Shown here: one piece after another, positions 1 to 45,936 of the stretch | How the letters are laid out: each line of letters starts with the position of its first letter | Numbering within the stretch: the first letter of the stretch is position 1 | NCBI GenBank assembly: GCA_032718865.1 | Contig: JALUTQ010000032.1 | Coordinates: 1,116,001-1,180,000 of the forward strand | Length of the DNA stretch: 64,000 nucleotides | Reading direction: 5' to 3' | Source of the DNA: Tilletia caries | Lineage: Eukaryota > Basidiomycota > Exobasidiomycetes > Tilletiales > Tilletiaceae | Made by a program: the position numbers and the translations under genes | Notes under the pieces: model-generated | The model's database searches: none | Seen by the model: only the letters and a program-made list of their open reading frames with translations | What the model was told of the DNA's origin: nothing

Positions 1-1222
1 TTGCACAGCTAGGCAAGCAAAGAAAAGATTTGGCGACATGGACGCCGTCCAACGCTGATGCGGTTCGCGAGCTCGTAGACGCTGTTCGTAATGCAGCGTT
101 AACGGAACCATCGATATATGCTGCCGAGCTACTTCAAGACGAGTTCGGGGCGAACGCGCGTCGATTCCTACGCGATGCACTTCTGGCGATAGAGTGGAGC
201 GACGTTTGTCGGACGGGAGACGTTGGGAGGATGCTGATGGCCCAAAGGTTCCTGGCTGTTGCGTTTGCCGGCGTCGGCAAGCACCAGTACTCGCAGACGT
301 GCCTGGACGAGATCTGGGCCCATAAGGTACTACCGGTCAAAACATGGCGAACCCTGGCCGCCGCCCGCCTCATCAATCGCTTTGGGGTCCAGAACGGCTT
401 CATCGGCGCCGATCTGTACCAAGAACACTTGAACAAAGAGCTACAGGTCAGTGGGAGGTTAACGACAGAAGAGACCTTTGAGGATGCGGTCGCTCACCTT
501 TCCTTGTATCTCCGATTTCCATTCAGCGGGTAGATACCAAGCACGGAGCAGCAACGGCGGTTTCGAGACTGCGGGATTGCTTCTCGGCTGTTGCGGAGAT
601 TTCGAGGTCCCTGAACGATGCCCATCCGGAGCTCTTTGACAAGAACGGACGAAGGCTGAAGGATGACGATGGTCATGTCAAGGATGTTGAGCGGGTTAGC
701 AATCTGGCTCAGCAAGACGGACTCTTCGACGTACATTCGAGTAGATTGTCAAACGAGACATTGGCCGCACGCGTCAGTCGTAAGCCAAAACCAAACGCGG
801 CAGGGGTTCCGACTGGGATGGATTTAATCGCCGATCTGCTGCCAACGCAGTGCGGTACCGATGTGCTCGAGAAAGGGTTGAACTACTTGAGAGCGAAGGG
901 ACTTCAACAGTGGAAGAACGCAAGATCAGCATGGTGTCGATACGAGGCCTTGCTGCGAGAAGGGGGGGTCACAGAGAACCTAGAAACAGATCAGGACGAG
1001 GGTCTCGTAGTCGCGACTGAGGAGGACGCGGTTAACGTACCTAGACTTCTGGATTCCGAGCCCGACATTCTCAGCGATGACGCCAGACGAGCCCTAGAAG
1101 AGGAACAGATGCATCGGAACTGGTTGCGCAGGGAGGAAGAAGCTGAAGCTGAATTAGCGCTGGTGGACGAAGACATCACAGGGGATGGTGGTGAAGAAGG
1201 ATCGATGGTGAGACAGGAGTAA
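1..1222 (+). CDS. DUF6589-family protein, copy 1 (C-terminal part; 5' end outside window)
   Basis: This is the 3' part of a DUF6589 protein, a basidiomycete family without assigned biochemical function. Coding is open from about base 3 to 446, then an intron (447-526, GTCAGT donor, TTCAG acceptor), then 527-1222. The same intron position recurs in copy 2 (29381-32397). The conserved block includes DVGR, AFAGVGKHQYSQ and GADLYQEHLNKELQ, which matches the C-terminal half of the family. The tail is acidic. Copy 2 shows that about 600 more N-terminal residues should lie before base 1. No frame break is visible in the part present. The stop lies 65 bp from the stop of the convergent helicase. I infer that this is the transposase of the element; the family name is recognised by pattern, not by a search. 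Confidence 0.82.
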
Positions 1223-3653
1223 TCGTAACTCACCTCTGCGTTTGCGTTGATGTGTAGGTCCGCACAAGGCTGCTGAATGAACGAAGCTCATGCCTTAGAT
1301 ACCCATCCGTTTCGGGTTAGTCGTGCGGCAATGGGAAGGGTGAGACTGAGCGTAGCCCACTCCAACAGGGCAGGCAGCAACGCAATGGTATGTTCCTCTG
1401 ACATGCCGGAAGAATGGCCAAGCAGAGATCGTATGTAAGAGTCGTCGATGCCCTCCTTGAACACGGCACGTGCGAGTAAGCGGGGTGCTCTGTCGATCAA
1501 GCCGCCCATCGTTTCGTCTGGCATCACAGATCGCTCCGTCTGCCACTCACGCACGCCGGAGCGGCTTTTGTATACGTTCCTCCTCCAAACAAACAAAGCT
1601 CTTCCCAAGCTGCGACAAAGCTCGACAGTATCGGAATGGGCAGGTGGAGCAGTCAGACGGCCCACGGCAGTAGAAACGCCGACATCGATTGGCAATCGTT
1701 CGACCGTGTTGCTGTCGTGGCACTGGGAGCAGCAAGTGGGATTAGTGCCCTCCATTGTGCCTAGATCCGTGGTATAGCCAGCGCTCGGAGTTCTCCTCCA
1801 GTAGAAGGACGACAGTGTGTCTTCGATTGGCCCATCACCGATAGATTCGGTGCTGACTGATGGAGGTGTCGGATTGTGCGGCTCGACGGTCTGAATCACA
1901 GGTTTGAAATCCAGCCGAAGAAGATCCGTGATTGCGACCCGCAAACATCCCGGAGTAGAAAGCCATGTCGTGAGTTGGGTGTCGAGGTTGCTCCACTGCT
2001 GCTGCAGATGAGGAGTCAGACTGGATGCCGGTGGCGCAGACTCCGGCGACGCTTCGTGCGCTCGCCGAGCTTTGTAAAAATTCCGACATCGTTCGACCCA
2101 GTCAGGACACAGCAGGAGCGCCGCTGCGCGCGATCCTGGGCCGCGAGCTCCACGTCCGAAGTGCTGGACCAGTCCTCGAAAGTCCTTCGGCAGCTCCCAC
2201 TGGATGATCATATCTACGTCGGGTAATCGATACCCATTCCGAGAGCCTCTGTGGCAAAGACGACTCGTATCGATCCTGAACGTAGGCCGGCCATCGTTTT
2301 TCGCTTCTCGTATGCGGAGTCCATAGCCGTGAACGAAGCAACCTGGTCCCTCAGCGATTCCGGGAGATGTTGTCGAAGTAGCTCCGCAGCCATCGTAGCC
2401 TTACTCCGTGAATTGACGTATATGATCGTCTTTGGTAGCACGTTGGAACCATCCCTCGGTTGGAGTATCGTAAGCAGATCGTGGAACGATGAAGCCGCAT
2501 GCCGAAAAGGCTGAATGTCGTACGTGCACCCGTCTCGTTCTTTACCGACATCCAGCGCAAAGAAGGGCAACCGACCGAACTGTAGTGCTGAGCAAATCGA
2601 AGGCAGGGATGGTCCACTCAGCGTAGCTGACATGGCGAGTAGAGGAACGTTGGCGTTGAGCTTGGCCCGCAATAAACCGAGCTTGCCGAATTCCGGCCTG
2701 AAGGCCGCCCTTCCGGAGCCTGAGGCGATTCCCCAGTCGTACACGAGGTGTGCTTCATCCACGACAACGGCACGCAAGTCTCTGGCCCATATGCTCTCGC
2801 TGACGGCTTTGCCAACCCTGGTATTGTGGAACAGAACTTCGGGCGACAGAAAGACAACTTGCGCGGTGTTGTTCTCGATCTCTTGTATGGGATTGAATGC
2901 GCGCTCCTTTGACCCTCGGCCATGTATAAGCCTGCGCCGGGGACACTGCAAATGGTAAAAGATCACATCGGTCAACACGTCTGGCCTTAGCCCTACGCCC
3001 CAACGCGCTGATTTATCCCGTTCAATGGACTGACCTCTGCACCGAGAGTGTCGGCGTTGAGCGCGACTGCCGATATACCCAGCTCATGCAAAATGTTGGT
3101 CTGGTGAATCATAAGTGTGAAGGTCTTCAGAACATATGTATGCAAGACAGAATGAATCGCGTTTATGTATCCTACCTGCTCCAACTGGATCTCTTTGAGT
3201 CCAGTGATAACCAAAAAATTGGCCTTGGGAAGACGAAGAAGAAGGGAGGCGAAGACCCAGATCATACTCTTGCCTGATCCCGTCCCCGCAGCAACGACTC
3301 CATCCATGCCGCCGAGCAAACGATAGACCGCCTCAACCTGCCATGGCTTCGGCTCGAATGGAAAATCACGCGTGCCCATGGCAGCGCGCACCCTCTCAAT
3401 CAATATGTGTCTGGGAGGTAGCACATCTCGCTCCTTCCCAGACAGGCGAGGTCGCACTCGAGTTGTATTGGGTCCTGTGTTGTGGAAGGGAAAAGAAAGG
3501 TAACCAGAAAAAATCTGTAAATGAGTAGCCGGCAACAGTCCACATAATCACACATCGAAAGCAACTCACTTCTGCGTTTGCTGGCGCGTGTCTCAATGCC
3601 ATGTGAGGCAGACGCGGCGGAAACTGGTTCATTGTGACGGCTGGTGAATGCGG

Positions 3654-4009
3654 TGTTATGAACATTCTACCACTATACTAAAAGGTGAGACCAGTCTCAA
3701 CCCAAGTGTCATGGATGATGCATATATCCAACACTCCCTCTCATCATCATGACCCTTTGGTCTGAGACGCGAGACCCCATAGGACTAGGGGTGAGACTCT
3801 TTCGGCCCGGAGTACCCGGAGCACGTGCTGTGAAAAAACCCGACAAGCACCCGACAAGAAAATGGTCGGAAAAGAAGTCTGGAGATACCGGGAATCGAAC
3901 TCACGACAGAGTCGATCAGACTCTTAATCTGTTATGAACATTCTACCACTATACTAAAAGGTGAGACCAGTCTCGACCCAAGTGTCATGGATGATGCATA
4001 TATCCAACA
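3654..4009 (-). mobile_element. Miniature LTR element (TRIM-like) with internal Pol III boxes
   Basis: Two 80-bp direct repeats (3654-3733 and 3930-4009) differ at one base, begin TGTT and end AACA, and flank 196 bp. The pair is bounded by the 5-bp duplication tgcgg (3649-3653 and 4010-4014). This is LTR-retrotransposon architecture at TRIM size, with no coding capacity. On the minus strand the 3' repeat is preceded by a purine tract (complement of 3734-3742). The 5' repeat is followed at 3929-3917 by a sequence complementary to a tRNA-Lys(CUU) anticodon arm, a candidate half-tRNA primer site. The same strand has an A-box match TAGTATAGTGG (3956-3946, inside the repeat), a B-box match AGTTCGATTCC (3901-3891, internal), and an oligo-T run at 3873-3870. 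Mobilisation would need proteins from another element. Confidence 0.8.
3946..3956 (-). promoter_or_regulatory. Pol III A box-like motif in the mini-LTR
   Basis: TAGTATAGTGG on the minus strand fits the tRNA-gene A-box pattern. A B-box-like AGTTCGATTCC lies downstream at 3901-3891, about 55 nt away, which is a usual spacing. The A box is in the terminal repeat and the B box in the internal region. Confidence 0.55.
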
Positions 4010-5132
4010 TGCGGTTGGCGTGGGGGTGTTCAAGGAGAGGATGCGGCCGTTTGGTCGGTCGGCGACGGCTGCGCATTGCGCGAACCAAAAGAACCGTGCC
4101 AGAGCGCGCACAAAGCCTCTGCGCCAATCCTTTCTTCATTCGAGATGTGAAGATCACTGTATAAGTGTGATCAAAGTAGCAAGCATATGTAAATTGTCAG
4201 CATTTATGCCCTGAAGTCTGCTCAACTCGAGTCTCAGTCATAAGATGCATCATGCTCACATTTCCATGTCCTCTACTTGATCTGATCCCTGCCGAGCATT
4301 GATTGGCCCAACACCGGGCTCCGGCGAAGAAATCCGACGTCTCTGGGCGATGAGAATAAGGTAAAAGATCACAGTCAGATATTAGCCGCGTGCGATTCAA
4401 GCTCTGGCCTCTGACGCTATTCACGGTGCGCACCTTTGAACCACAAGGAGATGATTCATATCCGATGTCGACGCAGGCAGGCGCGACGATTTCGGCAGTG
4501 GGAGATGGGCGCTGAGGATTGGCTGATGCTGGATGAGGTCCGTTGTCCAAGACCGCGAACGGAACGCGACTCGGTCTTGAGCATGGTACAGCATGGCCTG
4601 GCATGTCTGAGGGAGAAGTAAAGTGGCGCATCATGCACGTATCAGTTCCGTATGTAGGCCAATGCAATAGCGCGGGGACGGGAAGCTCACTGGTACTCCA
4701 GGGGATGGTGAAAGAATATTGAATCGTACCGGGTAGTCGAGTGGTCGTGCTGGCGTGCATTAGGCGTGCGGGCTAGAGGATGAAGAGATGATAGGGAATG
4801 GGGAGGCATGAGCACACGACCGCAGCACAATCAGCTTGATATACCGTACAGCAGAAGACGGATGATGGAGGAACTCACAGCTGCGCACAAGGTCGTGATC
4901 CAGTGAACAGCAAGCCGTAAGCTGTGGAAGCGCGTTTGCAGCGGGCGCGCCGCGCGAATGAGCTGCTTGCATGACGTGCAGGGGATCCGTGCGTCTTGTG
5001 GTGTATGGGAATCGAAATGAGACGTTGGAGGGGACAAGTTGGGCCCCCCATTAGTGGGAGATCCAGCCAAAACTGCCTCGAGTGTCCCCAGACCGTCTCC
5101 ACGGGATCTGTCCCTCATCACGTGCGAGCGAC

Positions 5133-5152
5133 GGTCTGGTGTGACCAGACTA
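5133..5152 (-). repeat. Terminal repeat of RecQ/DUF6589 transposon copy 1
   Basis: Read on the minus strand this is TAGTCTGGTCACACCAGACC, identical to the left terminus of copy 2. It is a hairpin in itself (GTCTGGT and ACCAGAC around CAC). A second inverted pair, CCAGACCGTC with GACGGTCTGG, follows inside, as in copy 2. Confidence 0.88.
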
Positions 5153-21480: not shown

Positions 21481-21818
21481 CTCTCTCAGCTAGTTCGACG
21501 AGCTTCTCTCATCTCTACCATTCTTTCTCGAGCTGGTTTGGATCAGATTTGCAGACCCGCACAGCACATTCTTCGGAACTGAAGACTGCGTAATGTCTCG
21601 TACTTCGCTCCCTCGCTGTGGCATCAGTAAACACATGCATGTAGCTACACGAAGCGCACCGCCATGCTTACTTTCACCAAAGACCAGATGACACACTATT
21701 CGCACCCCTACTCCATTCAGAAGGCTTGCAGGACCTGTACGCAGATACAGCAGCGAAGAACCTGTTCAACTGGCAACAGCCCAGGCCGTGATGACCATCT
21801 TGCTGAAGCCAGAGCCAA

Positions 21819-22377
21819 TTACTGCCCTGCCATTCGATTGTTCTCGTTCACGACTTGCTGCATCCCCTCTCTAGCCCGACGTGCTGCGGCAAGCAAGCGC
21901 GCGATGCGTCTTCCTTCCGCAACTGTCAGGCGTCGACCATCATAAAGACCTGACTGCGCTACCGCATCCATGAGTTCGATCCCGCGGTTGCGGTGGGTCC
22001 CTCTTGCGCACCATTGGCATACAAGGCAGCTCGATGTTGCGTTAGATGTATCCGACTCAGAAAGGCGTTCCAGGACAGTTTGAGACTCACAGTAGACGTC
22101 TGCCAGAAGGTCGGCAAACGGCTCGGCCGGTGGCCCTGCGCGGGCCTCAACCTGCACGTAACAAAACGACACGGGAGTGAGCATGGAGGACAGTCCAAGA
22201 ACTGGAAAGAACAGGCGGTGCACTCACGCGGGACGGAAGTATGGCGCATGGAGACAGGCTGCACGTGGATATACCGGGCGGAGATGGAGCCCGGACAGAT
22301 CTGGGCAGAGGCGTCGAGATCGTAAGCTTGAAGAGAAGGAGGGGTAGGAGAAGAAGAACGGGGCGATGGTGGACCAT
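21819..22377 (-). CDS. Small secreted protein, family copy B
   Basis: Member B, 130 residues. Exons: 22377-22228, 22151-22091 (61 nt) and 22000-21819. The signal peptide is MVHHRPVLLLLPLLLFKLTI. Exon 1 is 45 nt longer than in copies A, E and F, which adds a Pro/Ser/Cys-rich stretch. Exon 2 encodes VEARAGPPAEPFADLLADVY. Exon 3 has the family helix with RRLTVAEGRRIARLLAAARR and EGMQQVV. The promoter, exon 1 and exon 2 are essentially identical to copy D at 46066, whereas exon 3 differs at many residues. A TATA-like TATATAAAA lies on this strand at 22515-22507. Confidence 0.82.
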
Positions 22378-22506
22378 TATCCCGTGCAATGATTTTGATG
22401 ATGGGTGTTCAGTACGACAGCTGGAAATGTACAGCACTGCAAGCTGGGGAAGAGATGATGAGTTCTGATGGGTTCAGAAGAAGGCTGGAATCAGTACAGC
22501 AGCCGG

Positions 22507-22515
22507 TTTTATATA
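22507..22515 (-). promoter_or_regulatory. TATA box of copy B
   Basis: TATATAAAA about 130 bp before the start codon. The same element sits at 45928-45936 ahead of copy D. Confidence 0.6.
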
Positions 22516-23840
22516 ACCTCGAGCGGTCAACTTGGCTGCAAGATTCGAGCTTCCAACGGAGGGCGAGTATAGCCAAAATGGACAAACGATTAGCCGACCC
22601 ATTCAGACCGACGCTGAGTTCTGTGGCGTCAGCCTCCTGCTTTGAGTTTTGAGTTGAAGTTGGCTGAGAAACGGCGGCGTGTTATATCGTCTGAAGAACT
22701 CGGAGAAGTAGAGCGTGCTTCCAGCTTCCAGAACGACCGGAAAAGGCGAAAGTTCATGGGATAAAAGAGAAGTGAAAGTTGACGGGAAGAAGGTAGGAGC
22801 TGTAGAAGGGAGAATGGAAAAAAGTTGCGATCACCGCAAAGCGCAAAGGCGAAAGGTTATAAGAGCTAAGAATTAAGGAAGGGGTTCAAACGTTCGAAGT
22901 CTTTGCAGCTGGCCATGAGCTTGAACCCATAGACGAGGCGTCTCGAAATGGGAGGCATCATCGCAAGAAACGTAACACCTAGCGTAACCCCATGCACGTC
23001 TTCTGTCTGTGTACTTCATTTCAAATCTACATTTGCCATGTAGCACCAGCATCATTCTTCGCCTTCACTTTTCAATATCTCACCTTTCGCGAATGGCCTT
23101 CGAAGACGCATGGAACGGCCCTACCGAGTTGTCGGATATTGGTCCAAAACGTGATCCAGTCGGTTCGACGGCTCTCTAGAACGTGGTCCGTCCCGTGAAA
23201 ACGCAGGTGTCCGCGAGGTAGAGATACACCGAACGGCGTTGTTCGTGAACAAGATGATGCAGTTATACGCGTTCGAGGCATAGAAAGGCAAGGTAGAAAG
23301 AAGAGAAGCTCATCGGAAGTCGTTGAGAGAGAACAAATTGAAAGAAGGGAAGGCGACTTATGTTCTTCAATTCATGGGGACACGCACCTTACCCGCGACA
23401 ATTTGAGTAATAATCGTCCGAGCTGAATTAGTAGACTACCCACGAGCATTCTGTGATCGTTGCGAACTAATCGAAGAGCTGTACTTGTCCGGCTGACGCT
23501 ATGAGTCGTACGGCAGCGAAATGTGCCCCGGCTTCGTAGAGATAATCGATAAGCCAACGAATCATCGCTATGATAATCCTTCTCTGAGGTATTGAATATT
23601 GAAGCTCGTGGAAAGCTTACGAAGTTGTATGGTAATCTAATCCGCTTTGAGATGCCAAAAGTTTGCAAAGAGGAAATCAGGAAGAGAACGCAGCGATAGT
23701 GGAATCGAGAGAAGCTCATCGAGAGGCATTCATCGTGGGGGAAAAGAAAGATGCGATACAGTCATTGCGGCCATAGTACTTCATCCAAAAGCTGCACCAA
23801 CACGCCGGACAGGCTTTCAAAATGTGTACAGCACACCTAG

Positions 23841-25643: not shown

Positions 25644-25691
25644 CTCTGTGTGAAGTGGAGGTCCGGGCCGGACTACCGTGGGTGCTGCGTG

Positions 25692-25758
25692 TAGTCTGGT
25701 CACACCAGACCGTCGCACGCACGTGATGACAGGACAGGATCCCGTGGAGACGGTCTGG
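25692..25758. repeat. Left terminal and subterminal inverted repeats of copy 2
   Basis: The terminal 20 bp contain the hairpin GTCTGGT-CAC-ACCAGAC. CCAGACCGTC at 25705-25714 pairs with GACGGTCTGG at 25749-25758. The right end (32703-32722) has the same terminal hairpin, with CCAGACC again about 50 bp inside. Confidence 0.85.
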
Positions 25759-26275
25759 ACGCACTCGACCCAGTTTTGGCTGGAAGTCCCAATTACAACC
25801 GACCCAACTTGTCACCACATACGATTTTTTTCTCTTTGTAAGGCCCGATCATGATAACCAGATCCGGACACTACAAGTCTCCAACCAGTGGTCGCAGTAC
25901 GCTCCTCGCCACCACTCACCAGGCTCAGCAGCCTGCTGGATGCCATCCGTCGTCACTCTCGGCTCTCTCGGACTCTCGCCCAGCTGTGACTTGTGAGTAG
26001 GCCGTAGGGGACGTGCTGCGCTTGTCATTATGCCCAGCTGATCCTTTGCCTCATGCTTTGACTCCCATCGTACAGAACAGCGGCCTCCGACGCAACTGTC
26101 GCGAGACTGGACGCCTTCCTCGGCACAGCAACTGTCGCGCTCTCCCGCCTACGTCTCTGCCCTCTGGACGGCCAGTGAGTTCTTTGTCGCTTTATGCTTG
26201 CATCATTGAATGCCAAAGCACACCGTACTGAGCCACGCATGATCTACAGCTCTCATCACACAGCTATGCCCGGGA

Positions 26276-29200
26276 CACCTCAATCATCAAGCGGAACGTC
26301 TCGGACACCTTTGGCCGCCATAGTCAGCGTTCCACAGCAAGCAGCATCCATACCTCAAGCCGCCACTGCCGCTGTGGTTGCCCTTGCGCTCGCACTCGAC
26401 GTCGATGAAGAAGATGGTTCGTCTCGGGGCTCAAAGGTCAGTATCTCGATGTCATGCTGGGTCATCCCACGCCTCAAACCACATGCAGCTGACCGACATC
26501 ATTTCATTCTCTTTGTGTGCCAGAGACCTCGTTTAGACTCGTACGATCTTCCCCACGGACCAAGCTGTGCGCTACGCGGTTCGGATCAGGTGGAGAATGT
26601 GTGAGTAGATGGGACTGGTGCAACGCGGACGCGCTCCTATCTACGTTGCGTACACAGACGCCCCGCGCATGTTGAATGTTGATCACTGACAAGTGACACT
26701 CCTACACATTGTTCTACAGTTCCCCTTCCTTGAACAATGATCAGATTGGCGCAGATGCTTTGTGTGCGCTCGCGCAGAGCCTCTCTGCCCATGAACCACG
26801 CCCCTCTGCCGCACCTCGCCCGCCATCTGCAGTGACCGAGCTCCCTCACGCTCGGCACGGACCCGACTCAGCACCAGAAGCAGCAGCAGCGCCGACGACG
26901 GCGACGGTGATGGGTGCAGAGTCAGTTCAAGCGTCCGGAAGTTCGGCGGCGCTGCCGGAAGAAAGCACCAATAGCATGAAACGCAAACGTGAGCTATCCC
27001 TTCACCCCTCCCTAGTCGTCGTGTGATTTTTGTGAATGAACCTCCTTCAATCTTTACACTTTCTGATACACACAGGATCGGAGCGTAGCATACATGTATC
27101 TCGATCATCCGCAAGCCAGTTGCCTCCGCTACACGTCCTCACCGCGGCAGTGCGCGCTGCCATGCACAACATGAATTTTTATACCGAAGCCATGGCAGGT
27201 CGAGACCGTGTACCGCATCATCGCTGGGATGGACGGCGTTGTTGCCGCCGGGACGGGCTCAGGCAAGAGCATGATCTGGTACTACATACCACTCATACTG
27301 CCAAAGGCCAAAATTCTCGTCATGACCGCACTAAAAGAGATCGAGAAACAGCAGGTAGGCATGGTCGATGGTAGTGAATCGTCTGCTCTCAGCCTGTCAC
27401 CATGCCAGGCTCTGATTTTTCTGGACATCAACAGGTCGAGTTGCTGCGCGCAGCTGGTATATCGGCAGTCGCACTTAACGCCGACACTTTGAACACAGAG
27501 GTCAGTGTGCTGAATGAGTGTCTATGAACTGAATTTCTTGGGCTAGGATGATCTGGGCACTGACAAATATGGATGTATGCACTTTACATTTTTACAGTCT
27601 TGTCGTCGGGCGCACAAGCAAGACAAAAAAAAGGGAAAGGGAAAAAGCATCCAGTCCTTTACACCTGGTCGAGAACGGAACCGCCCAAGTCGTCTTTGCC
27701 TCTCCGGAGATGCTGTTCAACAACAGCAGAGTCAGTACAGCTGTGACCGGGAGCAGATGGGCCAAAGACCTCTGCGCCATCGTGGTTGACGAGGCGCATG
27801 TCGTGTATGATTGGGGCATAGTCAGGTCCAATTCCAACAAGGCTCCATTTCGGCCAGAGTTCGGCAAGCTGGCTGTGCTCCGGGCCAAGTTCAACTCGAA
27901 TGTTCCGCTCCTCGCGATGTCGGCAACTCTGAATGGCCCATCCCTACCCGCTATCTGTACAGCCCTACAGTTCGGCCGACTGCCATTCTTCGCACTGGAT
28001 GTTGGGAAGGAACGAGACGGGTGCGCGTACGATATCCAGGCGTTCCAGCATCCGATCTCGTCGTTCCTCGACCTCGTCGAAGTTATCCAACCAAGGCAAG
28101 GGACGGGCCAGTTGCCGAAAACGATCATATACGTCAATTCCAGGGATAAGGCGGTGTCGATTCTGGAGGTTCTTCAGCAACATCTCCCTCCCGAACTTCG
28201 AAACAGCATCGCGACGTTCACGGCCGCCGATACGACAAGCCAGAAGCGATGGACGATGAATGGTCTGTTAGCCGGCACGATACGGGTCGTCATTGCGACG
28301 GAGGCTCTTGGCATGGGAATCGATCTACCGGACGTGGACATGGTCATTCAGTGGGAGCTTCCCAAAGACTTCAGAGCCTTGGTTCAACACTTTGGACGGG
28401 GTGCTCGAGGTCCGCAATCGCGTGCGGCGGCTCTCTTGCTATGTCCAACCTGGGTGATTCAATGCAGGGACGCATTCAAGGCTGGCCAAGGTCGAGAAGC
28501 ATCACAGGCTCCAGCGCCAGCGCCTACTTCAAGTCTTTCTACGCGGTTGCAGCAGCAGTGGTCGAACCTCGATGAGCATCTGAAAGCATGGCTTTTGACG
28601 CCCGGTTGCTTGCGTTCCGCCGTCGGTCGCCTCACTCGATTGGACTTTGCGCCGGTCATGCAGACTGTCGAGCCGTTCAGGACGGCACATCCTGCAATCT
28701 CCTCACTTGCAATTGGCACGGGACCGGTCTCGGATACCCAGTCCTGCTTCTACTGACGCAACACTTTGGCACAAGAGACACACGCCGAGGCCGACAGAGC
28801 CAATCCTACTTGTTGCTCTCAGTGCACGGAGGGCAACTCTGTACAACGAGCTCCAGTGGAGCCCAGCGGCATCAGGGCGGCAGCGCGTCTCACTGTTCCT
28901 CCCGCTCATGTCGATACCGTCGAGCTCTGTCGCGATCTGGGTCGTGAGGTATGGAAGTGGAGACAACAGATCTTCAAAAGCCGATCAGGTGTGGAAGATT
29001 GGCAAACGGCCCGGTCTGTGATGCCAGACGAAACGCTGGGTGGTCTCATCGACAGAGCACCTCGCCTACTCGCGCGCGCTGTCCACAACGACGTTATTGA
29101 CGAACACTATACTCGCAGTCTTCTGGGTGATTCTTCCGGCATGTCAGCGAACCACATCTCCGAATTGCAGCCCATTCTTGAAGTATGGGCCCATGCCAGT

Positions 29201-29311
29201 CTCACGCTGCCCATTGCTACTCGACTGACTCGGAATGGCTGGGTATCCAAAGGCCAGTCCTCTGACGTCCACAATGATGACGATGCTCTCACGGCAGCGA
29301 TACTAATTTGA
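26276..29311 (+). pseudogene. RecQ-like DEAH-box helicase of the transposon, copy 2
   Basis: SF2 helicase homologous to copy 1. The start at 26276 opens with MPG and the first exon ends at 26436 (GSK), both matching copy 1. Later exons include the Walker A exon ending at 27354, a 66-nt exon 27435-27500, and the main exon from about 27600. Motifs: AGTGSGKSMIW, VVDEAHVVYDWG, AMSATL, IIYVNSR, ATEALGMGIDLPDVDMVIQW and QHFGRGARG. A C-terminal region with PTCCSQC runs to 29311. Breaks relative to copy 1: one extra base in T5 (27175-27179) before the WQVE motif, one shift at A8 (27625-27632), and TGA at 28754-28756 where copy 1 has TGG. Homopolymer positions leave sequencing error possible for the first two. 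Its role in transposition is inferred. Confidence 0.85.
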
Positions 29312-29380
29312 AACTCAGTGGTGACTGGTGAGTAGTACATTGATCATTCTTCTTCTTGTGTACGCGCCAATAATTTATCC

Positions 29381-32300
29381 TCATTCCTCATCTGCCATTA
29401 GTTCCTCTTCAGCCAGGGCCCACTCCAGCTCATCCTCTTCCTCCCTTCGCAGCCACGCTTGATGCCTGTGATCTCGCTCCGACGATTGTATGTCACCGTC
29501 GCTGAAAACATCCGGATCATCTTCCATATCGTCTAGTGAGTCCATCTCGACGTCTTTGCTGGGGTCGAACGATGTCTCGTTCTGATGATCGTTGTCGTCG
29601 TCCGAACTCGGCAAGCCATCGAGCCTGTCCCACGCTTTCCGCACCTTGGTCCACCGACGTAAGCCCCTCGCCCGCAAATACAACAAACCCCGTTCGAGAG
29701 CATCGTCGCCGCACTTCGCCGAAACCAAGTCTGCGAGCAGATCTATTCCACTCAGCACTCCGGCAGCGTTTTCCTTTGGCCGTTGGGCTGCTCGCTGAGC
29801 CAGTGTCGCATCTGAAAGTCTACCCTGCCGTGCGTCAAACAGTCGATCTTGTTGTGCCAAATTCGAAATCCGCTCGATGTCTTTGACAAATTTGCTCTCT
29901 CTCTCCAGATTTCGGCCGTTCTCGTCGAACAGGTACGCATGTGCGCCGTGTAGCGACCTGGAGATCTCGCATACTGCGGAGAACGAGTCTCGCAACCGCG
30001 CAACAACTGTTGCTGCTCCGTGCGTAGTATCGGTGCGCTGAGAGATTGGGATCCGTGAGTCAGCCCAGATACTGAGAAGCAGAGTGTATACACAGCGTGT
30101 AGCTTTGCCACTGACCTGTAGTTCCTTGTTCAGATGTTCTTGATAAAGATCTGCCCCAATGAAGCTTTCACGTGCTCCGAAGCGGTTGATGAGCCGAGCC
30201 GCAGCCAGCGTCCGCCATGTATCAGCAGGAAGCACCTTATGGGCCCAAATGTCGTCAAGGCATGCCTGTGAGTACTGATGCTTCCCGACGCCGGCGAACG
30301 CGATGGCCAGAAACTTCTGCGCGGCTAACATTCTTCCAACGTCCCCTTTGCGACAGGCGTCGTCCCACTCCAGCGCCAAGAGGGTATCCCGAAGAAATCG
30401 ACGTGCGTTCAGGCCGACCTCATCCTGACAGGCTTCGAGAGCTTGTACCGAGGAATCGCCGAACACCGTCTCCAACACACCGTCAACCAGTTCGCGGATC
30501 GCTTCAACGCTCGTGGGGGTCCATTTCGCCAGATCCTTTGTTTGTTTGGCCAGTTGTGTCCTACCGGCAAACCGCAATCCCAAGACAACAATGGCAAAGA
30601 GTAAGTCCTCACACTTCAGGATTTCAGAGGCCTGGTCCTTGGCGATGATCCAGGCGACTCACCGGAAAAGGTAACGAATCCACCCGCTGAATGTGTGCTT
30701 GATCAAATTCCAGGCTTCATTGTAAAGTGGCTCTTCCTCTCGCAACGCAGATTTTCCGCGGCGTAGCGCATCACGAAGACGCTCGAGGCTGGCGGCATAT
30801 CCTACTTTATTTGTTGCGAAGTGGATCTTGAAGATCGCCCAAACCCAATTTAAGTGCAAATGCCAGGGAGCTGAGGAAGAACGGTCAAAGTTGTATTTGT
30901 CTTCCGCTTTGACATGCTGCCGACGTGCCTTCAACCCTGCTTCAACATTCCTGTGAGTTTTCAGGTCTCCGACAACGAGCAAGACGTTTCCCTCTGGCAA
31001 TACGCTGGTCCGGAGCAGCTCCCACTTTGTTGCTTCAGGCGCAGATTGATCGGCCTGGGAAGAGGGTACGTTGGTCGGGACTTCTACCTCGTCGTATATG
31101 CGCAAAGTGATTGAGCTGTCCTCGAGCACGGCCAGATTACCGTCTATGCTCCCTTCGTTTGCCTCGATCAAAGGAAGAGGAGCAAGCTGCCATTGAGCTG
31201 CCTCGATTTTGTCCAGACGATGCGCGTTTTGACAGGCTTCCTTATATTCCCGCAGAAGTTGAATTGTACGCTGTGTATGCTTGTTTTGAACGTCGATAGA
31301 TGCCTTCTTGACATCCAAAAGCTCTCGTGCCAGGAAGTACTGCCCAGCGCTTCGAAGAAAGGCACTTTTGCCCATGAATTCGTCCTCGTCCAAACTGCGC
31401 GGGGCGTCAAGGGCGGAAAGGATGGTAGTGGAAAGTGCCGCAGAAGAAAAAGACTTTGGAAGCTGGACATACGTGCGACTTGTTAAATTGACCATTCGAG
31501 TTTTCGAAGTGACTTGGTTTGATCGCTCTTGCACGTATATGTCTACATTGTCGTAGAGAAGAACGTGAACGGCGTCGACATCCTTCATCAGGGACTGAGC
31601 TTTCGCAAGTGCCAGTTTATTGAAGTGCACCAAATGACGCGAGCTGGTGTCCCGACTGGTAGCGACTCCAAGGCGATTGAGCATTGTTTGTATGCTTTTT
31701 CGGCGCATGCTTGAGCCTGAGGATGAGACCGAACACAGTCTGGAATCGATTCATACGCTCGCTCCTCAGGTTCAACGCGATCGAAAGGCAAACAACGACG
31801 GCCTGTACGTTGAAGAACAAAGGTTTATGAGCTATGTGACATAGCTGCATACACCACTCAGTCACTCACATTATCTGATTTCAGTGACCATGTAGCACCC
31901 TCCTCCGTACTGATTTCGCTCCGCTGTGGACCATACGCGGATGCATCGCCAACGCCGCAAAGACGTTCCATGATGCGGACTGTGACAGGTAGATGTTGTT
32001 CCATTAGGGTGCGCAGATAAAGGAGTTGATCTGTTTCTGGAGCACTGGCATCTCCTAAGAAGTCGGAAGCTCGGAATCCTGGCTCGTGGGACGCCTGATC
32101 TTTTTCAACAGTGATCCTTTCGAGCAATATATCGGCCAAACCCTTGCCGTATGTGATCGCCGCCTCGTCCTCAGTGCTGAATACCGCTCTGCTCAATAGA
32201 CGAGCGCATCGTAGAGGACCGTATTGCCGGCCGGGTCTGTAGAGAAGCCAGTTGGAGCGCTGGCGCTGGAGACTGACGTCCGAACTTGTGAAAAACTCGT

Positions 32301-32397
32301 CCAGAAAGTCGGAAAGCGAGAGTCCCACATCTGCCATGGTATCATGGACGGCCAGAACCCTCTGAAGGCGCGACATGCGGGCCCTTCTGTTGACCAA
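29381..32397 (-). pseudogene. DUF6589-family protein (putative transposase), copy 2
   Basis: Full-length DUF6589 gene with probable exons about 32390-31870, 31802-30663, about 30607-30117 and about 30040-29381. Visible family features in order: LSDFLDEFF near the N-terminus, NLRSERMNRFQTVFGL, LLYDNVDIYVQERS (near 31570), LLVVGDLKTHRN (near 30965), DVGRMLAAQKFLAIAFAGVG, GADLYQEHLNKELQ (near 30140) and an acidic C-terminus. The Asp-Asp-Glu spacing of YDN, GDLKT and LYQEH would suit an RNase H-like DDE nuclease, but I have not tested this. A +1 shift at the A5 run (complement of 31696-31700) breaks the frame before QTMLNRLGV. The 30663 junction is also uncertain in phase. It is convergent with the helicase, as in copy 1. 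Confidence 0.82.
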
Positions 32398-32778
32398 ATG
32401 TAAAGGTGATGTTAGTCGATTGGATCATGGACCAAACTGCACTTGCAACCCTCCTCCGTGTGACCAATACTGCTGGCGGCAGACGGGCAAGACAAACTTG
32501 GCTGTAAAGGATGTGCGCCATACTCACGGGGGATGATCTTCTTGCGTCATCATGTCTGTGTGGAGAGCTCAATGGTTGGAAGGGAAGAGTAGAGAATGGA
32601 GGGTTTGGACAGGTTTTGCTCGACCACTTCCACTCAGAATCGGGTCGAGTGCGCCCAGACCGCGTACGCGGTATAGTGCTTTAGCTCATTTGAGAGTTAC
32701 AAGGTCTGGTGTTACCAGACTAGTGCTGCGTGTCCCTTTTTTCCCTTCATGTAAAACCTCTTCCTGTCAATGAGAACC

Positions 32779-35401
32779 TGTGCTGGACGAGGTCCATGTG
32801 GCTCTTATCTTATCTTATCTGTTCTCTTCCTCTTCCTCTTCGTTTCCTTTCCTTTTCTCACACTCGCACTCCTCCGCATAGCAACACCAGTACCTCCACA
32901 TTTCCCACGCTATTTTCTCTCCTCCTCATCTTTTTCCCTTCCCGAGCTCATCCTTGTACTTAGTTCTTTCTCCTTGTCAATTACTCACTCTTCACTTGTT
33001 GCATATTGCTTCGCACTGCTAGTCTATCTAGTACATGGTGATGAGAGTAGATCTGCTCCGCTGAGCGAAGTACGCAGGCCGAGCGACCCACAAGACACCA
33101 CCCTTCTCCCTTACCCTCCCACCTTCTCACCGCTGTCATCGTCCCTTTCTTGACCTCCTTCGACCTTCACCTTATTTTCTTCTCAGGTTACACGAACACC
33201 TCGCCCTTCTGCTCGCGCTTTCGCTGCTGTTCCGCTGCGCGTGCGTCGAGGTCGAACCTTCCCTCCGCCCCAAGATCTCCACAGCTCTCCTCCAGTGCTC
33301 TCGTGTCCGGCTCTCCCCAACTACAAGCCATCCCGCCCGCAACATGCACGCCGAGCTTCGTCTCTCGTCTACCGGCTCTGGCGAGTCGTTTGCCCCCAAG
33401 ACCTTCATTTTTGACCGTCCTTCCACCCTCGAACTCGATGGCCACGTCCCCGGCTTGAACTTTCTCCCCGCTCCCGCTGCGGACAACGCCATTCTTCCCT
33501 CTTTTTGCCTTGGTGATCGACCAGGCTTTCATTCGTTACGATGGTTCCTCCTTTACGCTCAAGTCCGTCCCCTGGCATTCTGACTCGGTGTGCATCGACG
33601 GACGGCTGCTCGGCGACCGTGTACATGCGCTCTCGGACGGCGACAAGCTGCGCTTTGGCAAATACTTCAAGGACGGTCGTCGCTTCGAAACGGAGTGCGC
33701 TGTTCGCGTTCGCATCTCTTTTCCTCCTCCAGCACCCACGACCACAAATTTGCCCGGTGTACGCAAGCTCCTCAAAGACCTTCGGGAAGACAAGGCGCAG
33801 GATCGACCCAGCCGACAGTCAGCGAGCCGTGACAAAGCCGGGACGCTTTCGGCGAGTCGGGTACCAACCTCGGTACCGACTTCGGTACTGCAGTCTCCAG
33901 CTTCTCCCACTACTCCAGTACCGGTCTCCGACTCGCTTCTCCCATCTCATACGAGCATCCCCGGCATCAGCACCTCCTCGTCGTCCGCAATAGACCATAC
34001 CACCAGCTCTGCGACCGAGTGTCGTCCCGTCGTGTCTCGTTCTTACGCGGAACTGATCGCACAACATTCCCATGCGTACGATCCACCACCTGCTTGCCTC
34101 GCTTCCGCTACCGCCGCAACGCCCAAATTCTCTTCTCCACCATGCATCATCTCAACAACACACTCGTCGACGGTCCTTGGTTTACCGCCTCCGGACTGCG
34201 CTTCTTCTGGCGAAGTCATCGATCCATTGCGTCCGCGCACCAAAGCAGACCATGAGGGCATTCTTCAGGACGCGACCCAACTTGCTTCTGCCGAAACGGT
34301 GTCCGGCTCTTTGGTCTCCTCCACCTCGGTATCGACTTCGGTACTCGCGCCCTCGTCACCGCATTCAACCGCACCGAGTCCCTCAGCCGCGCCTGGCAAT
34401 CATGGCAGTGAGAACGCGAAACCTTCGTCATCGCAAGTGACGTCTGCACCGACCCTATCATCTCCTGCCCCCACATCAGAAGCTCCGACGCGTACCTGTC
34501 ACAGCGAGGCGAGGCTTGGATCCGTCGACTGTGCGCTGGCTCGCATCCGATCAGCGTGGCTGCTATTGCGACAGGAGGTTATGGATGCAGCGTCGGCTGC
34601 TCTTACCGCCACACAAGTTCCTTCTCATCCGCCCGTGCATGTGGCTGCCCCAACAGCGATCAGCTCTCCATATCGGCCCTCTTCTCCGAATCATGCTCTT
34701 GCTCGCGTCGCAGAGGCTTGGAGAATTGCGCGACAATGGATACATGAAGACTCAGCTCCGCCGACTACCGCCTCCGTATCATCCGTGCGCACTCCTGGCT
34801 CCCTTGCTTTGGATGTCGATCGTACGGTCTCAGCTCTTCCATACAATCACTATGGCGACTGTAGCGCTGCTCCGTCGGTCTTCGCTCCTCCCCCGCCACT
34901 TAGCTCTTCACCTCATCACCTTCCGACTTTGTTTTTCCTTCAGGCCTTGTGTGTCATGGCTATGGACGTCGAATCCGTGCCTCGCCCATCCTCAGCTCTA
35001 TCGCCCATTCACACACCACGCGCAGATACTTCGAAGCCTCTTCAGCCAGCCCTCGTTTGCGCCTCTTTTCTTCCCTATCCATTGAGCCGCATCCGGTGCA
35101 TTCCTCAACCACGACTCGGGACAGTCGTCTTTTGTTGGTGGGGATGTGCTAGACGAGGTCCATGTGGCTCTTATCTTATCTTATCTGTTCTCTTCCTCTT
35201 CCTCTTCGTTTCCTTTCCTTTTTCTCACACTCGCACTCCTCCGCATAGCAACACCAGTACCTCCACATTTCCCACGCTATTTTCTCTCCTCCTCATCTTT
35301 TCCCTTCCCGAGCTCATCCTTGTACTTAGTTCTTTCTCCTTGTCAATTACTCACTCTTCACTTGTTGCATATTGCTTCGCACTGCTAGTCTATCTAGTAC
35401 A
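32779..35401 (+). mobile_element. Non-autonomous LTR element carrying an FHA-domain gene
   Basis: Two 257-bp LTRs (32779-33035 and 35145-35401), starting TGTGCT and ending GTACA, differ by one substitution and two one-base indels. The 5-bp duplication gaacc (32774-32778 and 35402-35406) shows insertion into the copia 5' LTR. A purine tract (ggtgggga) precedes the 3' LTR, and TGGTGATGAG follows the 5' LTR as a possible primer site. The 2.1-kb interior has no gag, protease, reverse transcriptase or integrase; it carries an FHA-domain reading frame instead. The near-identity of the LTRs indicates recent insertion. Movement would need enzymes supplied in trans. Confidence 0.9.
33344..35144 (+). 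CDS. FHA-domain gene captured inside the LTR element
   Basis: A long frame is open from 33510 through the interior. It runs on into the 3' LTR to 35450, so its true end is uncertain. Near the start it has the C-terminal half of a forkhead-associated domain: FIRYDGSSFTLKSV, then VCIDGRLLGDRVHALSDGDK and LRFGK. FHA domains bind phosphothreonine peptides. A short upstream frame (33344, MHAELRLSSTGSG) looks like the domain's first strands in another frame, so a frameshift or a lost intron near 33505 is likely. The remainder is Ser/Thr/Pro-rich, with two related segments (LARIRSAWLLLRQEVMDAAS and LARVAEAWRIARQWIHEDSA). It was probably acquired from a host gene; the donor is not in this window. Confidence 0.65.
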
Positions 35402-35437: not shown

Positions 35438-38400
35438 GCTTAACCCTTAGCTACTCACAAGATGACAAGTACCTCGGACAAGTTGCGTGAAGGCATCGCG
35501 CCCCTGCTCGGTCCCAACTACCGACTGTGGGCGGAGCGCGTCAAGACGGTCCTTCGATCCCACGGCTACTGGTCCGCCGTTGCGCCCGGGACACCACCCG
35601 GTGAGGGGGCAGCGGCGCAGGAGCTCAAGGATTGGACGACGGCCAACGCGAAGGCATACGGATGCATCTTCTTGACGACAAGCGACGAGATCCAGACGGA
35701 CCTGGCCCGACTCGGCACGGAGGACGGGAAGGTCCTTTGGGACTACCTCCGCGACGAGTATCGAAGCACTTCGGTGGAGGCAAGACTCCAGCTCAAGAGC
35801 GAGCTCCTCGACGCGCTGACGGCCCCCAAGGAATCAATGCGCGACCACATTGGACAGCTTGCTGGTCTCTACGAGCAGCTGCTCCAGATCGGCAAGCCGG
35901 TAGACGAGGAGGAGCGATGCATCGAGCTGCTCTGGAGCCTTCCGTCCGCCTACCGAGGCTTCAAGTGGAGCGCCAGCGCGACGACGTCGTGGACGGAGCT
36001 CAGGTCCAAGATCTTAGAGGCGGAACGGTTTCTCAATCGTGAGGATGAGAAGGACGCCAAGACCCGACAGGACGCTGCCTTCGCGTTCTACCACGCGCCC
36101 AGCCCTGCAAAGAGCAGCGGCAAAGGAGGCACTCCGTCGAGCAGGTACGGAGGCGCTTCAAAGGATGGAGATCCTTTCGGCGGAGCATGCTGGCTCTGCA
36201 AGCAGAAGGGCCATCGGTTCACCGACTGCCCTCACATCAACTCGGCGCAAGATTTCGTCAGCACGAAGGTTGACGCCAAGAAGCACCAAGACACCGCGGC
36301 TATGGCACGAGAAGCCAAGCCGAAGGCTACGGACAACCCCGCCGACGTTGACTTTGCGTGTGTGGTGGGTGCCCCCAGCACGACGGCTGGCCACTTCATC
36401 CTCGACAGTCGACGCCGGCAGCTCCAGGCACATCGTCGCCAACTCATCCGGCCTCACCAACTATCGGGCCGCCAAGCCGGACGCGGGCATCGAGTGCGCA
36501 AACGGAGGTCTTATGCCAGTCGCAGGATACGGGGAGCTCCTCGTCACGACGCAGGCTGGCCTCAAGATCGAGCTGAAGGACGTCGCTCATTGTCCCTCCG
36601 CCATCGGGAACCTCATCGGCGGTAAGCGCCTCACCAAGAGCGGCTGCACCATCGCGTTCGACAACACGTCCGCGGTCGTGACCATCAGCGCATCCGGCCA
36701 GGTCCTCATGAAGGCATCAGTCGTCGGCCAGAACTGGGTCGTTCCGCTGGAGCCAGTTACGACAGACTCGGTGATGATGGTGTCGGACACGAGCGTTGAT
36801 CCGAACACTATGCATTGGCACCGATGCGCTGGCCACATTGGCGAATCTACCTTGCAGGCCCTGGCAGCAAAAGGGACCATCACCGGCATGCCCAAGACGC
36901 TCGGTCCGCTCGGGTTCTGCTCCGACTGCGCCGAAGGCAAGATCGCAAGGAGCAAGCACCCGCGCATAGCAAATATTAGCAATCGGTGAGCGGGAACACC
37001 GTCCGCTTAGCAAGATCCACATTGACCCTTTTGGCCCTGTGAATCTGAAGGATGGGCAGGCACTGGGCGGCGCGAAGTACGGGCTCATCATCACCGATGA
37101 GGCGAGTCATCACGTCTGGGTCTCAACTATGCAGTACAAGTCAGAGGCTGCAGGGATCCTCAAGGCTTTCCATGCCCAGGCGCTGACTCGCTACCCGGAG
37201 AAGCCCATCAGCCGGATTCGCACGGACAACGCGTCGGAGCTCAACTCGGCAGAGCTGTTGGAATATTGGGCTCGGCACGGGGTCAAGGTGGAACCATCGC
37301 CACGCTATGCGCCGCAGAGCAACGGGGTGGCGGAGAGGGCAGTGCGGACAATCACCGAGATGTGTAGAACGATGTTGATTGCAGCAAATCTACCAGCATC
37401 ATTTTGGCCCGCAGCCGTACGAACAGCAGCATACGTGAAGAACAGAGTGCCGGCGACAGGATTGAAGAAGGGGGAGACGCCTTATGAGGCATTGCATGGA
37501 CGTCCGCCCAAGCCGGAGCGTCTCAGAATGTTCGGATGCATTGCATGGGCCAAGATTCCTGAGGTACACAGGACGGGCAAGTTCAGCACGAAGGCCATGC
37601 CCTGCATCTACCTCGGTCCGGCCTTCACCAATGCGTCCAGACTGTGGGACCCCATCTCGAAGAAGGAGATGATCGAGCACTCGGTGGTGTTCGACGAAGA
37701 AGGAAAGGCAGGCACGCTGCTCGAGAAGGAGCAGGGTCGCCAACACGAGCAGCAAGTTGAGCTGCTCAGAGCCCTCAATCTCACCGGCGACGACGAGCAA
37801 GCAGGGCGCGTCGACAGGGAGCCAGTGCGGATGGGAGGTCGGGTGGAGGGTGCAGAAGGCGTCCGATCAGCGATGCAGGCTGTCTTGGACCACGACGCTG
37901 CGCCAGACGGAGCTCGCGAGGCGATGGAGCGAGCAGCTCGCGGAGAACCGGTTGCCCTTGACGAGATGGGCCGGATCGCAAGGCTGCTGGCCGATCTCCA
38001 TCACCAGCTCGCGACAGAGGGAGCAGACAGAGCCGGCGAGCGTGGTCAGGGGACCGTGCAAGAGGGGACTGTCGGACGAAGGAGTGCGAGGATTGCGGGG
38101 CAGCCGGCATTGGAGGTGTCTCTGCCGCCCGCCAGTCGCAAGCGCAAGGAACCCGAAGGCGCGTACGCGATTGGTACGTGCTTCGTCGTCATGGAGCCAA
38201 GCGAGGTCCCATACGACGATCCCTGGTCGGTCGCGGAGGCTACGCGACGAGCGGACAGCAAGCTCTGGCTCGAGTCCATGCAGAAGGAGCTCAGGTCGCA
38301 CGACGCGCGCGGGACGTGGGAGATCGTCACGGCGCCTCTCGGAGCCAACCTGATCAGCGCGAAGTGGGTCTTCCGGGTCAAGAGGAACGGTGACAACACG

Positions 38401-39639
38401 ATCCAGAAGTACAAGTCAAGACTGGTCGCACGGGGTTTCACTCAGGTACAAGGCGTTGATTTCGAGGAGACGTTCGCTCCGACTTCTCGCCTGCAGATCC
38501 TCCGCCTGTTCTGTGCACTCGTTGCTGTGCTGGACATGGATCTGCATCAGATCGACTTCGAGACGGCCTACCTTAATGCCAACCTAACTCACGACATCTA
38601 CATGCTGCCCCCCGACGGGGTCGAGCTCGAGCCTCACCAGGTCCTTAAGCTCCGCCGAGCTCTGTACGGCCTGAAGCAGTCGGCGCATGACTGGTACGCC
38701 GTTCTGCGAGACTCCTTGAAGACGATCGGGTTCGAGCAGTGCGCGCTTGACCCGACCATCTACGTTCGGAACGGGGACAACGCAGCGATGCTGCTTGTGT
38801 ATGTTGATGACATCCTGGTGGCGGCACCGAAGGGAGGTAGTGTCGAGGCTACAAAGGCCGAGCTTCTGTCGCTGTTCAAGGGAACAGACCTCGGGCCCGC
38901 CCACTACTGCCTGGCATCCGGATCGAGCGGAACCGCGAGCAGAAGACCATATCGCTGGATCAAGAGAGGTACGCCGAAGAAGTCCTCGCTCGATTCGGAA
39001 TGTCGGATTGCAAGCCCGCCAAGACGCCAATGATGGCGAAGCAGACTTTGCGGAAGGCGGTCGACGGCGAGCCGCGGGCAGACAAGGCGCAGTACCAGGC
39101 TCTCGTTGGCTCAATGGCGTACTTCGGACAAGGAACGCGAGCAGACTTTGCATACCTCGTCAGTGTGCTCGGCAAGTTCTGCGCAGACCCGTCGGAGGCA
39201 AATTGGACTGCGGCGAAGCACGGCCTGCGGTACCTGCGTGGAACGTCTGGAGCAAGGCTCGTGTTCGGAGGCGCTGAGGATTTGAAGTTGCGGGGATACG
39301 TTGACGCAGACTGGGCTGCGGACAAGGACGACAGGAAGTCGATGTCAGGCTACGTATTTACGGTTGGAGGTGGCGCGGTGGCTTGGGGCTCTCGCAAGCA
39401 GGGTGCTGTGGCTCTGTCTACAGCAGAGGCTGAGTACATTGCAACAGGCGTTGCGGGTCGGGAAGCAATCATGCTCAAGGGAGCGTTGACGGCATGCGGA
39501 CAGCTCATTGGGACAATCACGGTGCATTGCGACAACCAGGCGGCGATCCAGTTGGTCAAGAACCCTGGATCTCATCACGACCGCAGCAAGCATATCGATA
39601 TCGTTCACCATTGGATTCGAGACCAGACGCAACTGGGAG

Positions 39640-41561: not shown

Positions 41562-42930
41562 TAAGGAAAGGCGTCACCTCCGCGCTCTCGGCGGAGTTCC
41601 GCGTCCTCCGCGCCTCCGTACCGCAAAACTCCGCCGATTTTCCTCCGCCGGAGGACGTCCTCCGTACCGCAGAGGCTGACAGCGGAGGAGCGGACGGAGA
41701 AGTACCGCCAACGACTTGAACGCGGACGGAGGGCGGAGAAGTTTGAGGTTCCCGCAGTGTTTCGAAGTATACTTGAAGGACCAGAATTTTTTTCAAAACA
41801 TACTACAGTATACAGTATGTTTTTGGTCCGGAAGGTCTGAGTACTGCGACAGTATAGAAAAAGTAGTACTGTTTCCTTCAAGTATACTGGCGACATACTG
41901 GCAAATTTTCGTGTACTTACATTATACTCCAGTAGTACTGCAGTAGTACTTGTCAAAGAAAACATTATTCAAGTATACGAAGCGTAGTACTGCAGTATGT
42001 CCACATCATAATTTACAGGACGATGTGTCCGAAAACATACTGCAGGACAGTTCCAGTATACTGCAGCACCGTTCTCGCAGTACTACTGCAGTATGTCCAC
42101 ATCACATTTTACAGGAAAATATGTCACGAAAGATACTGCAGGATAGTTCCAGTATACTGCAGTAGCTCGAGCCAGTATTCTTCAAGTATGCTGCAGCATA
42201 CAAAAAGGAGGTTTACGGCATCGCGCTCCTTTTACATACTGCAGTATACTGCAGGACCGCGCCGGAGGATCCAAACAGGATACATTACCTTTTTTGAAAC
42301 CGCCCAGATTTTCCGACAGGATACAGTATGTTTTTGCAAAAAGTAGTACTGCAACAGTATACTGCGACAGGATACAGTATGTAGTATGTCGAAACACTGG
42401 GTTCCCGGACTTGAGCGCGGACGGAGGTGTCGATGGAACTCCGCGCCTCCGCGCTTACTCCGCTCTGAGACTGAAAACCCAGGGGTTACACAGGGTCTCT
42501 CCTATTGAAGGGGTCTCAGAAGACGGAGTCTCGGGTTTCATATCACGTGATCGCTAGTCACGCCGGAGTCTCAAGACTTGAGACCCCTTTTCAAATGATT
42601 TTTTTCGCCGATTAAAGCATGTAACTGCAAAGTCTGAGACCATGACTTGGGTCGGCAAGTTGGGATCACGGAGGCGCGGAACTCCGCCGGAACTCCGCCG
42701 GAGGAAGGCGGACGGAGGTCCTCTCCTTGAAAAACTCCGGCTACCCACCGCGGACGGAGGAGGCGGCCTCGGTGAGGACCACTCTGCTACGGCGGACGGA
42801 ATGCTACCGGCCTTGCTGACACCACTGTCTTGGGCGGACGGAATCTTCCGCCCAAAAATGAGCGCGGAGTTTTGGCGGAGGTAGGCGGGCGGAGGCGCGG
42901 AGGCGCAGAGTTCCTCCGCGCCTTTCCTTA
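41562..42930. mobile_element. hAT-like non-autonomous element 2 (1369 bp, hosts element 3)
   Basis: Terminal repeats TAAGGAAAGGCG (41562-41573 and complement at 42919-42930) are flanked by the 8-bp duplication ttgcgcag (41554-41561 and 42931-42938). The interior has dense CTCCGCC and GGCGGAG repeats near both ends. There is no coding region. It is inserted in the last codons of copia pol. Confidence 0.85.
41755..42399. mobile_element. hAT-like MITE 3 (645 bp) inside element 2
   Basis: Terminal repeats CAGTGTTTCGA (41755-41765 and complement at 42389-42399) are flanked by the 8-bp duplication ggttcccg (41747-41754 and 42400-42407). The interior is AT-rich and packed with AGTATACTGCAGTA-type palindromic units. 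It has no coding capacity. Confidence 0.87.
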
Positions 42931-42997
42931 TTGCGCAGGGAGTGAAGGATTGGAGGACAGGAATAGACGGGAGGCAGGAGACTACGCAGAGAGAGAG

Positions 42998-43100
42998 TGT
43001 GAAGTGGAGGTCCGGGCCGGACTACCGTGGGTGCTGCGTGTCCCTTTTCCCTTCATGTAAAACCTCTTCCTGTCAATGAGAACCACCATTAGTTTCCACA
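42998..43100 (+). repeat. Copia 3' LTR (intact, 103 bp)
   Basis: TGTGAAGTGG to TTTCCACA, followed by the duplication ctctg (43101-43105). It preserves both unoccupied target sites that are filled in the 5' LTR: gtgctgcgtg (RecQ/DUF6589 element) and gaacc (FHA-carrying LTR element). Confidence 0.92.
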
Positions 43101-45256: not shown

Positions 45257-45927
45257 TCGTCGAATTCGTCAAGAGAGAACGTTCGGAAAGGGGAGAAACC
45301 GAGCTACTGTACTTTCTACAGTCAAAGGACATGATTTTCTTTCGCACCCTTCTCCTGTCAGCAGCGCGAAAGATCAGATCACGTAGAACGAAGATACGTC
45401 CGTTGTATATGACAATATGTTTGATCCTAACAGCTTAGTGCGCTCACTGATGGGTTTCATTCTAATCGAAGTAGCGAGAGTCGAGCATGAGGCGAGCAGA
45501 CACAGGCTTCCAGTCGAGAAGGCCAGATCGCAGATCTCAAGGAGCTATCACTGCATCACTGTGAAGGCTACACCTAACGTATTCGAAACGATCGCGGCGC
45601 ATCCTTTCGCTTTTGCCGTGATCGCAACTTATTCTCCCTTCTTCCTGTCAGCTCGTCAGCTTTCACTTTTCTATTACTTATCCCCCGAACTCTCGCCTTT
45701 TCCGAGTCGTTCTGGAAGCTGGAAGCACGCTCTACTTCTCCGAGTTCTTCAGACGATATAACACGCCGCCGTTTCTCAGCCAACTTCAACTCAAAACTCA
45801 AAGCAGGAGGCTGACGCCACAGAACTCAGCGTCGGTCTGAATGGGTCGGCTAATCGTTTGTCCATTTTGGCTATACTCGCCCTCCGTTGGAAGCTCGAAT
45901 CTTGCAGCCAAGTTGACCGCTCGAGGT

Positions 45928-45936
45928 TATATAAAA
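45928..45936 (+). promoter_or_regulatory. TATA box of copy D
   Basis: TATATAAAA 138 bp before the start codon at 46066, mirrored ahead of copy B. Confidence 0.6.

Follow-up and report, generated by a model that had tools for sequence, protein, structure and literature searches.

An AcademH-like DNA transposon carrying a DUF6589 gene and a RecQ-like helicase gene in Tilletia caries

We analysed a 64,000-nucleotide stretch of the Tilletia caries genome (assembly GCA_032718865.1, contig JALUTQ010000032.1, positions 1,116,001 to 1,180,000; hereafter the window), in which a 7,031-bp element pairs a gene for a RecQ-like helicase with a gene for a protein of the Pfam family DUF6589. The element is a true insertion and is very probably an AcademH-type DNA transposon, matched to AcademH by described traits, with DUF6589 as its transposase. 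It would belong to a kind of element already known; our literature search found no paper naming DUF6589 and no functional assignment for this family (PF20231).

Insertion, ends and copies of the element

The element and its insertion site comprise the following features.

25692..32722, plus strand: whole element, subfamily A1, 7,031 bp, delimited by flanking direct repeats and a related empty site
25682..25691, plus strand: left copy of the target duplication, GTGCTGCGTG, 10 bp
32723..32732, plus strand: right copy of the target duplication, GTGCTGCGTG, 10 bp
25692..25711, plus strand: left terminus, TAGTCTGGTCACACCAGACC, with 7-bp palindrome arms
32703..32722, minus strand: right terminus, TAGTCTGGTAACACCAGACC when read inward
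42997..43084, plus strand: related empty site, with a single GTGCTGCGTG at 43031-43040

A repeat scan of the window revealed that both flanks of the element recur without it 17 kb away. When the flanks were joined through one 10-mer and compared with this second site, they aligned over 90 columns with 97.8% identity and one gap. The presence of a single GTGCTGCGTG at the related empty site fixes the boundaries of the element and the 10-bp duplication, both as given in the initial annotation, and shows that the 7,031-bp stretch is a true insertion. The termini had been described as exact over 20 bp; in fact they share 19 of 20 bases, with one mismatch.

To follow the ends through the genome (38.1 Mb, 40 contigs), we searched for the terminus pattern with at most two mismatches and obtained 229 matches (118 forward, 111 reverse), as against 5 (3 forward, 2 reverse) for the reversed control pattern. 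Pairing drew on about 100 of the 229 places, single ends being left out, and took as facing those ends lying less than 10 kb apart. The 37 facing pairs included 28 with an exact 10-bp duplication, one with 9 bp and eight with 0-2 bp. Searching the genome with the DNA of the left end added three full-length copies, each flanked by an exact 10-bp duplication. The inconsistency of duplication length that the initial annotation had named as refuting its proposal was not seen: over the 40 examined pairs the duplication is exactly 10 bp in 31, 9 bp in one and absent in eight. Among nine full-length copies with both ends (6.8-7.5 kb), seven have 10 bp, one (C6) has 9 and one (C4:400304) has none, while a tenth (C10) is broken at its left end. 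No strong target motif emerged from the 28 exact 10-bp duplications examined. The same ends also bound 17 short copies (123-1281 bp), whose similarity to the long ones is limited to stretches of 27-96 bp in or close to the termini; six of them, 518-521 bp long, belong to a single class, with identities of 97.7-99.6% among the pairs listed. At C21:395841-395972, three termini of this family (family A) point the same way, spaced 56 bp apart.

A second copy had been reported at 1-5152 of the window. It is indeed a full copy, but the window edge cuts it and it belongs to a different subfamily: it measures 7,219 bp and starts 2,067 bases ahead of the window. Its own exact 10-bp duplication flanks it, and helicase identity between the subfamilies is 65-66%.

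1..5152, minus strand: in-window part of the second full copy, subfamily A2 (C27:1113934-1121152), duplication AGAAAATCCC

Inside this copy, at 3654-4009, an 80-bp sequence occurs twice in direct orientation, the two repeats being 276 bp apart and 99% identical, and the stretch that they surround resembles a tRNA on the minus strand. ARAGORN predicted no tRNA gene anywhere in the window, this stretch included; the repeats are possibly a nested short element derived from a tRNA.

Two DUF6589 loci of another lineage revealed a sharp end of homology, which defined a second family (B). Its ends start with TAATCAC, the DUF6589 side differing from the helicase side, and all five two-ended copies (C9, C32, C34, C35 and C36; 7.2-7.8 kb) carry an exact 9-bp duplication. 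The same gene pair therefore occurs in two families of one genome, with duplications of 10 and 9 bp. Four family-B ends (C4:153067, C5:404393, C3:1465292 and C21:656374) have no partner among the matches listed; those at C21:656374 and C3:1465292 are family-B-like, with one mismatch, and the former precedes a helicase match without DUF6589. In both families the ends are palindromic. The family-A end strand folds on itself through GTCTGGT-3 nt-ACCAGAC, giving a small palindrome at each end, and family B has longer GTGACC...GGTCAC hairpins. Compared with shuffled sequences, the fold is pronounced at both family-B ends (z -3.5), moderate at the right end of the window element (z -2.4), and unremarkable at its left end (z -1.1) and in the second copy (z -1.3).

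We then asked how often the two genes travel together. The genome holds at least 75 PF20231 matches, merged into at least 48 loci, and at least 54 helicase loci, the best candidates having been scored. A convergent helicase lies within 5 kb at 42 of the 48 DUF6589 loci, where random placement would pair 0.28 of 48; this expectation was computed on 21.3 of the 38.1 Mb, with contig extents inferred from the matches, and so overstates chance. The outcome that the initial annotation would have taken as refuting, DUF6589 genes never near such helicases, was not seen in this genome, and its proposal of a mobile DUF6589 and RecQ-like unit is borne out by this pairing together with the 31 exact duplications. 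When 30 DUF6589 loci were compared as DNA, they fell into seven groups with at least two copies, about 92-100% identical in the aligned stretches. Six DUF6589 loci are unpaired (C1:1389758, C3:1466037, C13:496601, C40:1373302, C40:1395899 and C40:1731921). C13:496601 lies inside an element of 5.0 kb that is flanked by a duplication but has no helicase match, C3:1466037 is 0.7 kb from an end of family-B type, and C40:1731921 is 0.8 kb from one of family-A type.

Twelve of the 54 helicase loci lack a DUF6589 partner; six of these adjoin general DEAD family matches and are probably host helicases. Such partnerless loci, and the frequency of RecQ-like genes in fungal subtelomeres according to two papers (PMC7473861, PMC7593156), would suit an account without any transposon, in which neighbouring host (subtelomeric) DUF6589 and RecQ genes were spread by segmental duplication. 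This account is contradicted by the related empty site, and the exact short duplications at precise ends, found in two families with different termini, and the short copies with the same ends also speak against it. We rejected it as extremely improbable.

The genes and the predicted transposase

The genes of the transposon in the window are convergent, and the 69 bp that the initial annotation had placed between them agree with the listed open reading frame (ORF) ends at 29311 and 29381.

27250..27270, plus strand: GTGSGKS stretch, read from the translation of an exon that precedes the listed helicase ORF
27548..28756, plus strand: RecQ-like helicase, main ORF, 402 amino acids, with Pfam and PDB matches
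28766..29311, plus strand: downstream ORF from the ORF list; the helicase frame is continuous in sibling copies
29381..30583, minus strand: DUF6589 C-terminal ORF, with the third triad residue, E, at 30137-30139
30659..31708, minus strand: N-terminal ORF of the DUF6589 domain, with the triad residues D at 31550-31552 and D at 30965-30967
31858..32397, minus strand: possible upstream exon of the DUF6589 gene, without a Pfam match, a candidate only

The helicase matches Pfam Helicase_C (5.9e-14), and its nearest solved structures in the PDB are the Bloom helicase (E 4e-15) and RecQ (E 1.1e-14). Its translation contains GTGSGKS, DEAH and SAT stretches, GTGSGKS corresponding to helicase motif I. 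In the sibling copies the frame is continuous, and the ORF at 28766..29311 probably encodes the helicase C-terminus. The open frame of the window copy spans 407 codons, as against 580-586 in four siblings and 529 in a fifth, and one in-frame TGA is common to the four A1 copies in which the frame extends across the DUF6589 domain. Because of the shortened helicase frame and this TGA, the window copy is probably not self-sufficient. When the TGA was read as part of an intron, no simple splice kept the reading frame; it may belong to an intron or be a true stop. Elsewhere in the genome there are copies whose matched stretches are free of stops. Stops occur in 29 of the 75 genomic DUF6589 matches (34 TGA, 7 TAA and 3 TAG), and either short introns that have GTGAGT donors or decayed CGA codons may account for the excess of TGA.

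Pfam assigns the two minus-strand ORFs to DUF6589 with E values of 1.3e-26 and 1.2e-16. In an AlphaFold model of a DUF6589 protein (predicted local distance difference test score, pLDDT, 84), the predicted fold has an RNase H-like core in which a long helical insertion precedes the third acidic residue, and resembles the catalytic folds of Hermes, the P element and RAG1, although sequence identity in these structural alignments is just 8-12%. The D-D-E triad is invariant in the DUF6589 alignment; E423, considered as its third residue, was rejected, as that column varies. On the strength of the modelled fold and the invariant triad, DUF6589 is most likely the DDE transposase of the element. H284 is also invariant, and at this histidine, the only one surveyed, the residue three positions before is never C or D in the 17 of 17 rows that cover it.

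A DUF6589 profile run against PDB sequences gave two matches only (E 1.1 and 1.2), a fold search of BFVD had as its best match a Pandoravirus hAT-dimerization protein at E 0.4, and none of 45 pattern matches in viral contigs was confirmed as DUF6589. The closest protein matches come from Tilletia, that of T. controversa being 97% identical over 59% of the query. Two protein searches seeded with words of the first 500 residues yielded 7 and 3 proteins, of which all those with a named source came from Tilletia; confining the search to the domain gave 11, with other Basidiomycota among them.

Relation to AcademH and other transposons

AcademH was reportedly described by Kojima in 2020 (Mob DNA 11:15). 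In later descriptions, AcademH produces duplications of 9 or 10 bp, and AcademX, of the same superfamily, duplications of 3 or 4 bp, a difference tied to the helicase of AcademH as opposed to the nuclease of AcademX (PMC10045372). AcademH is given as a group of low-copy elements in Basidiomycota, Ascomycota and Mucoromycota (PMC10799480), and non-autonomous Academ elements as widespread in a mushroom (PMC8290104). The initial annotation had placed a 10-bp duplication outside the usual superfamilies, a claim that the AcademH values overturn. We assign the element to AcademH because it combines a transposase (DDE-type by predicted fold and triad) with a helicase, because its host is a fungus of the Basidiomycota, and because its families duplicate 10 and 9 bp. 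No difference was established between the element and AcademH as these later sources describe it.

What the element has in common with AcademH, namely duplication length, helicase and host, is a set of traits and does not amount to homology. The element might instead represent a separate, undescribed DDE superfamily that gained its RecQ helicase and its 9-10-bp duplications independently of Academ. We regard this as quite improbable, as three independent traits (9 or 10 bp, a RecQ-type helicase and a host among Basidiomycota) would have to coincide with those of AcademH as described.

A RecQ helicase in a fungal DNA transposon also recalls KolobokH, a Kolobok transposon reported only from fungi, with such a helicase and a transposase that cuts TTAA targets (PMC9587614). 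That source, however, gives Kolobok duplications as 4-bp TTAA, whereas ours measure 10 or 9 bp and have sequences other than TTAA; it gives the ends as 5'-RR..YY-3', whereas those of both our families start with TA; and it places a C/DxxH motif between the second D and the E, whereas no C or D stands three before H284. Duplication length, ends and motif led us to reject KolobokH as very improbable.

The element shares with hAT (Hermes), the P element and RAG1/Transib a predicted RNase H-like core with a helical insertion, which is a likeness of fold only and not membership, and we know of no RecQ companion in these three groups. The hAT and P transposases further differ from DUF6589 in the C/DxxH signature described in PMC9587614, which the context of H284 does not fit.

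Putative mechanism and surrounding repeats

The DUF6589 transposase would bind the two palindromic ends, cut at the ends of the element and join them to the target at positions staggered by 10 bp (9 bp in family B), and repair of the gaps would yield the duplication of that length. Transposition may proceed by cut-and-paste rather than by copying. The RecQ-like helicase would act as a companion enzyme whose probable task is to unwind or remodel the ends or the intermediates of repair, and short end-only copies could be mobilized in trans. One may go further and suppose that the helicase extrudes or unwinds the terminal hairpins, that the transposase then acts on a forked or single-stranded end, and that many fungal 'subtelomeric RecQ' genes are stranded halves of such elements; we consider this proposal unlikely. 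To our knowledge, a DDE reaction on a hairpin end opened by a helicase has not been described for other eukaryotic superfamilies.

As a putative DDE transposase, DUF6589, a Pfam family without assigned function, gains a role that can be tested. If it holds, DUF6589 genes and the RecQ-like genes paired with them could be marked in annotations as belonging to transposons. The result also matters for the interpretation of helicase genes in fungi: according to PMC10799480, helicases of Academ, Kolobok or Helitron are the commonest domains derived from transposable elements in fungal gene fusions.

The surroundings of the 7,031-bp transposon are repeat-rich DNA. A 257-bp repeat (98.8%) adjoins it at 32779-33035 and 35145-35401, and Copia-type genes lie downstream at 35462-36625 and 37039-39033 (Retrotran_gag_2 9.9e-24, RVT_2 1.4e-50). 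The window also contains an inverted repeat of 969 nt, 97% complementary, at 21776-22744 and 45699-46667, and two copies of a CTGCAG-rich 96-bp tandem unit at 41984-42162.
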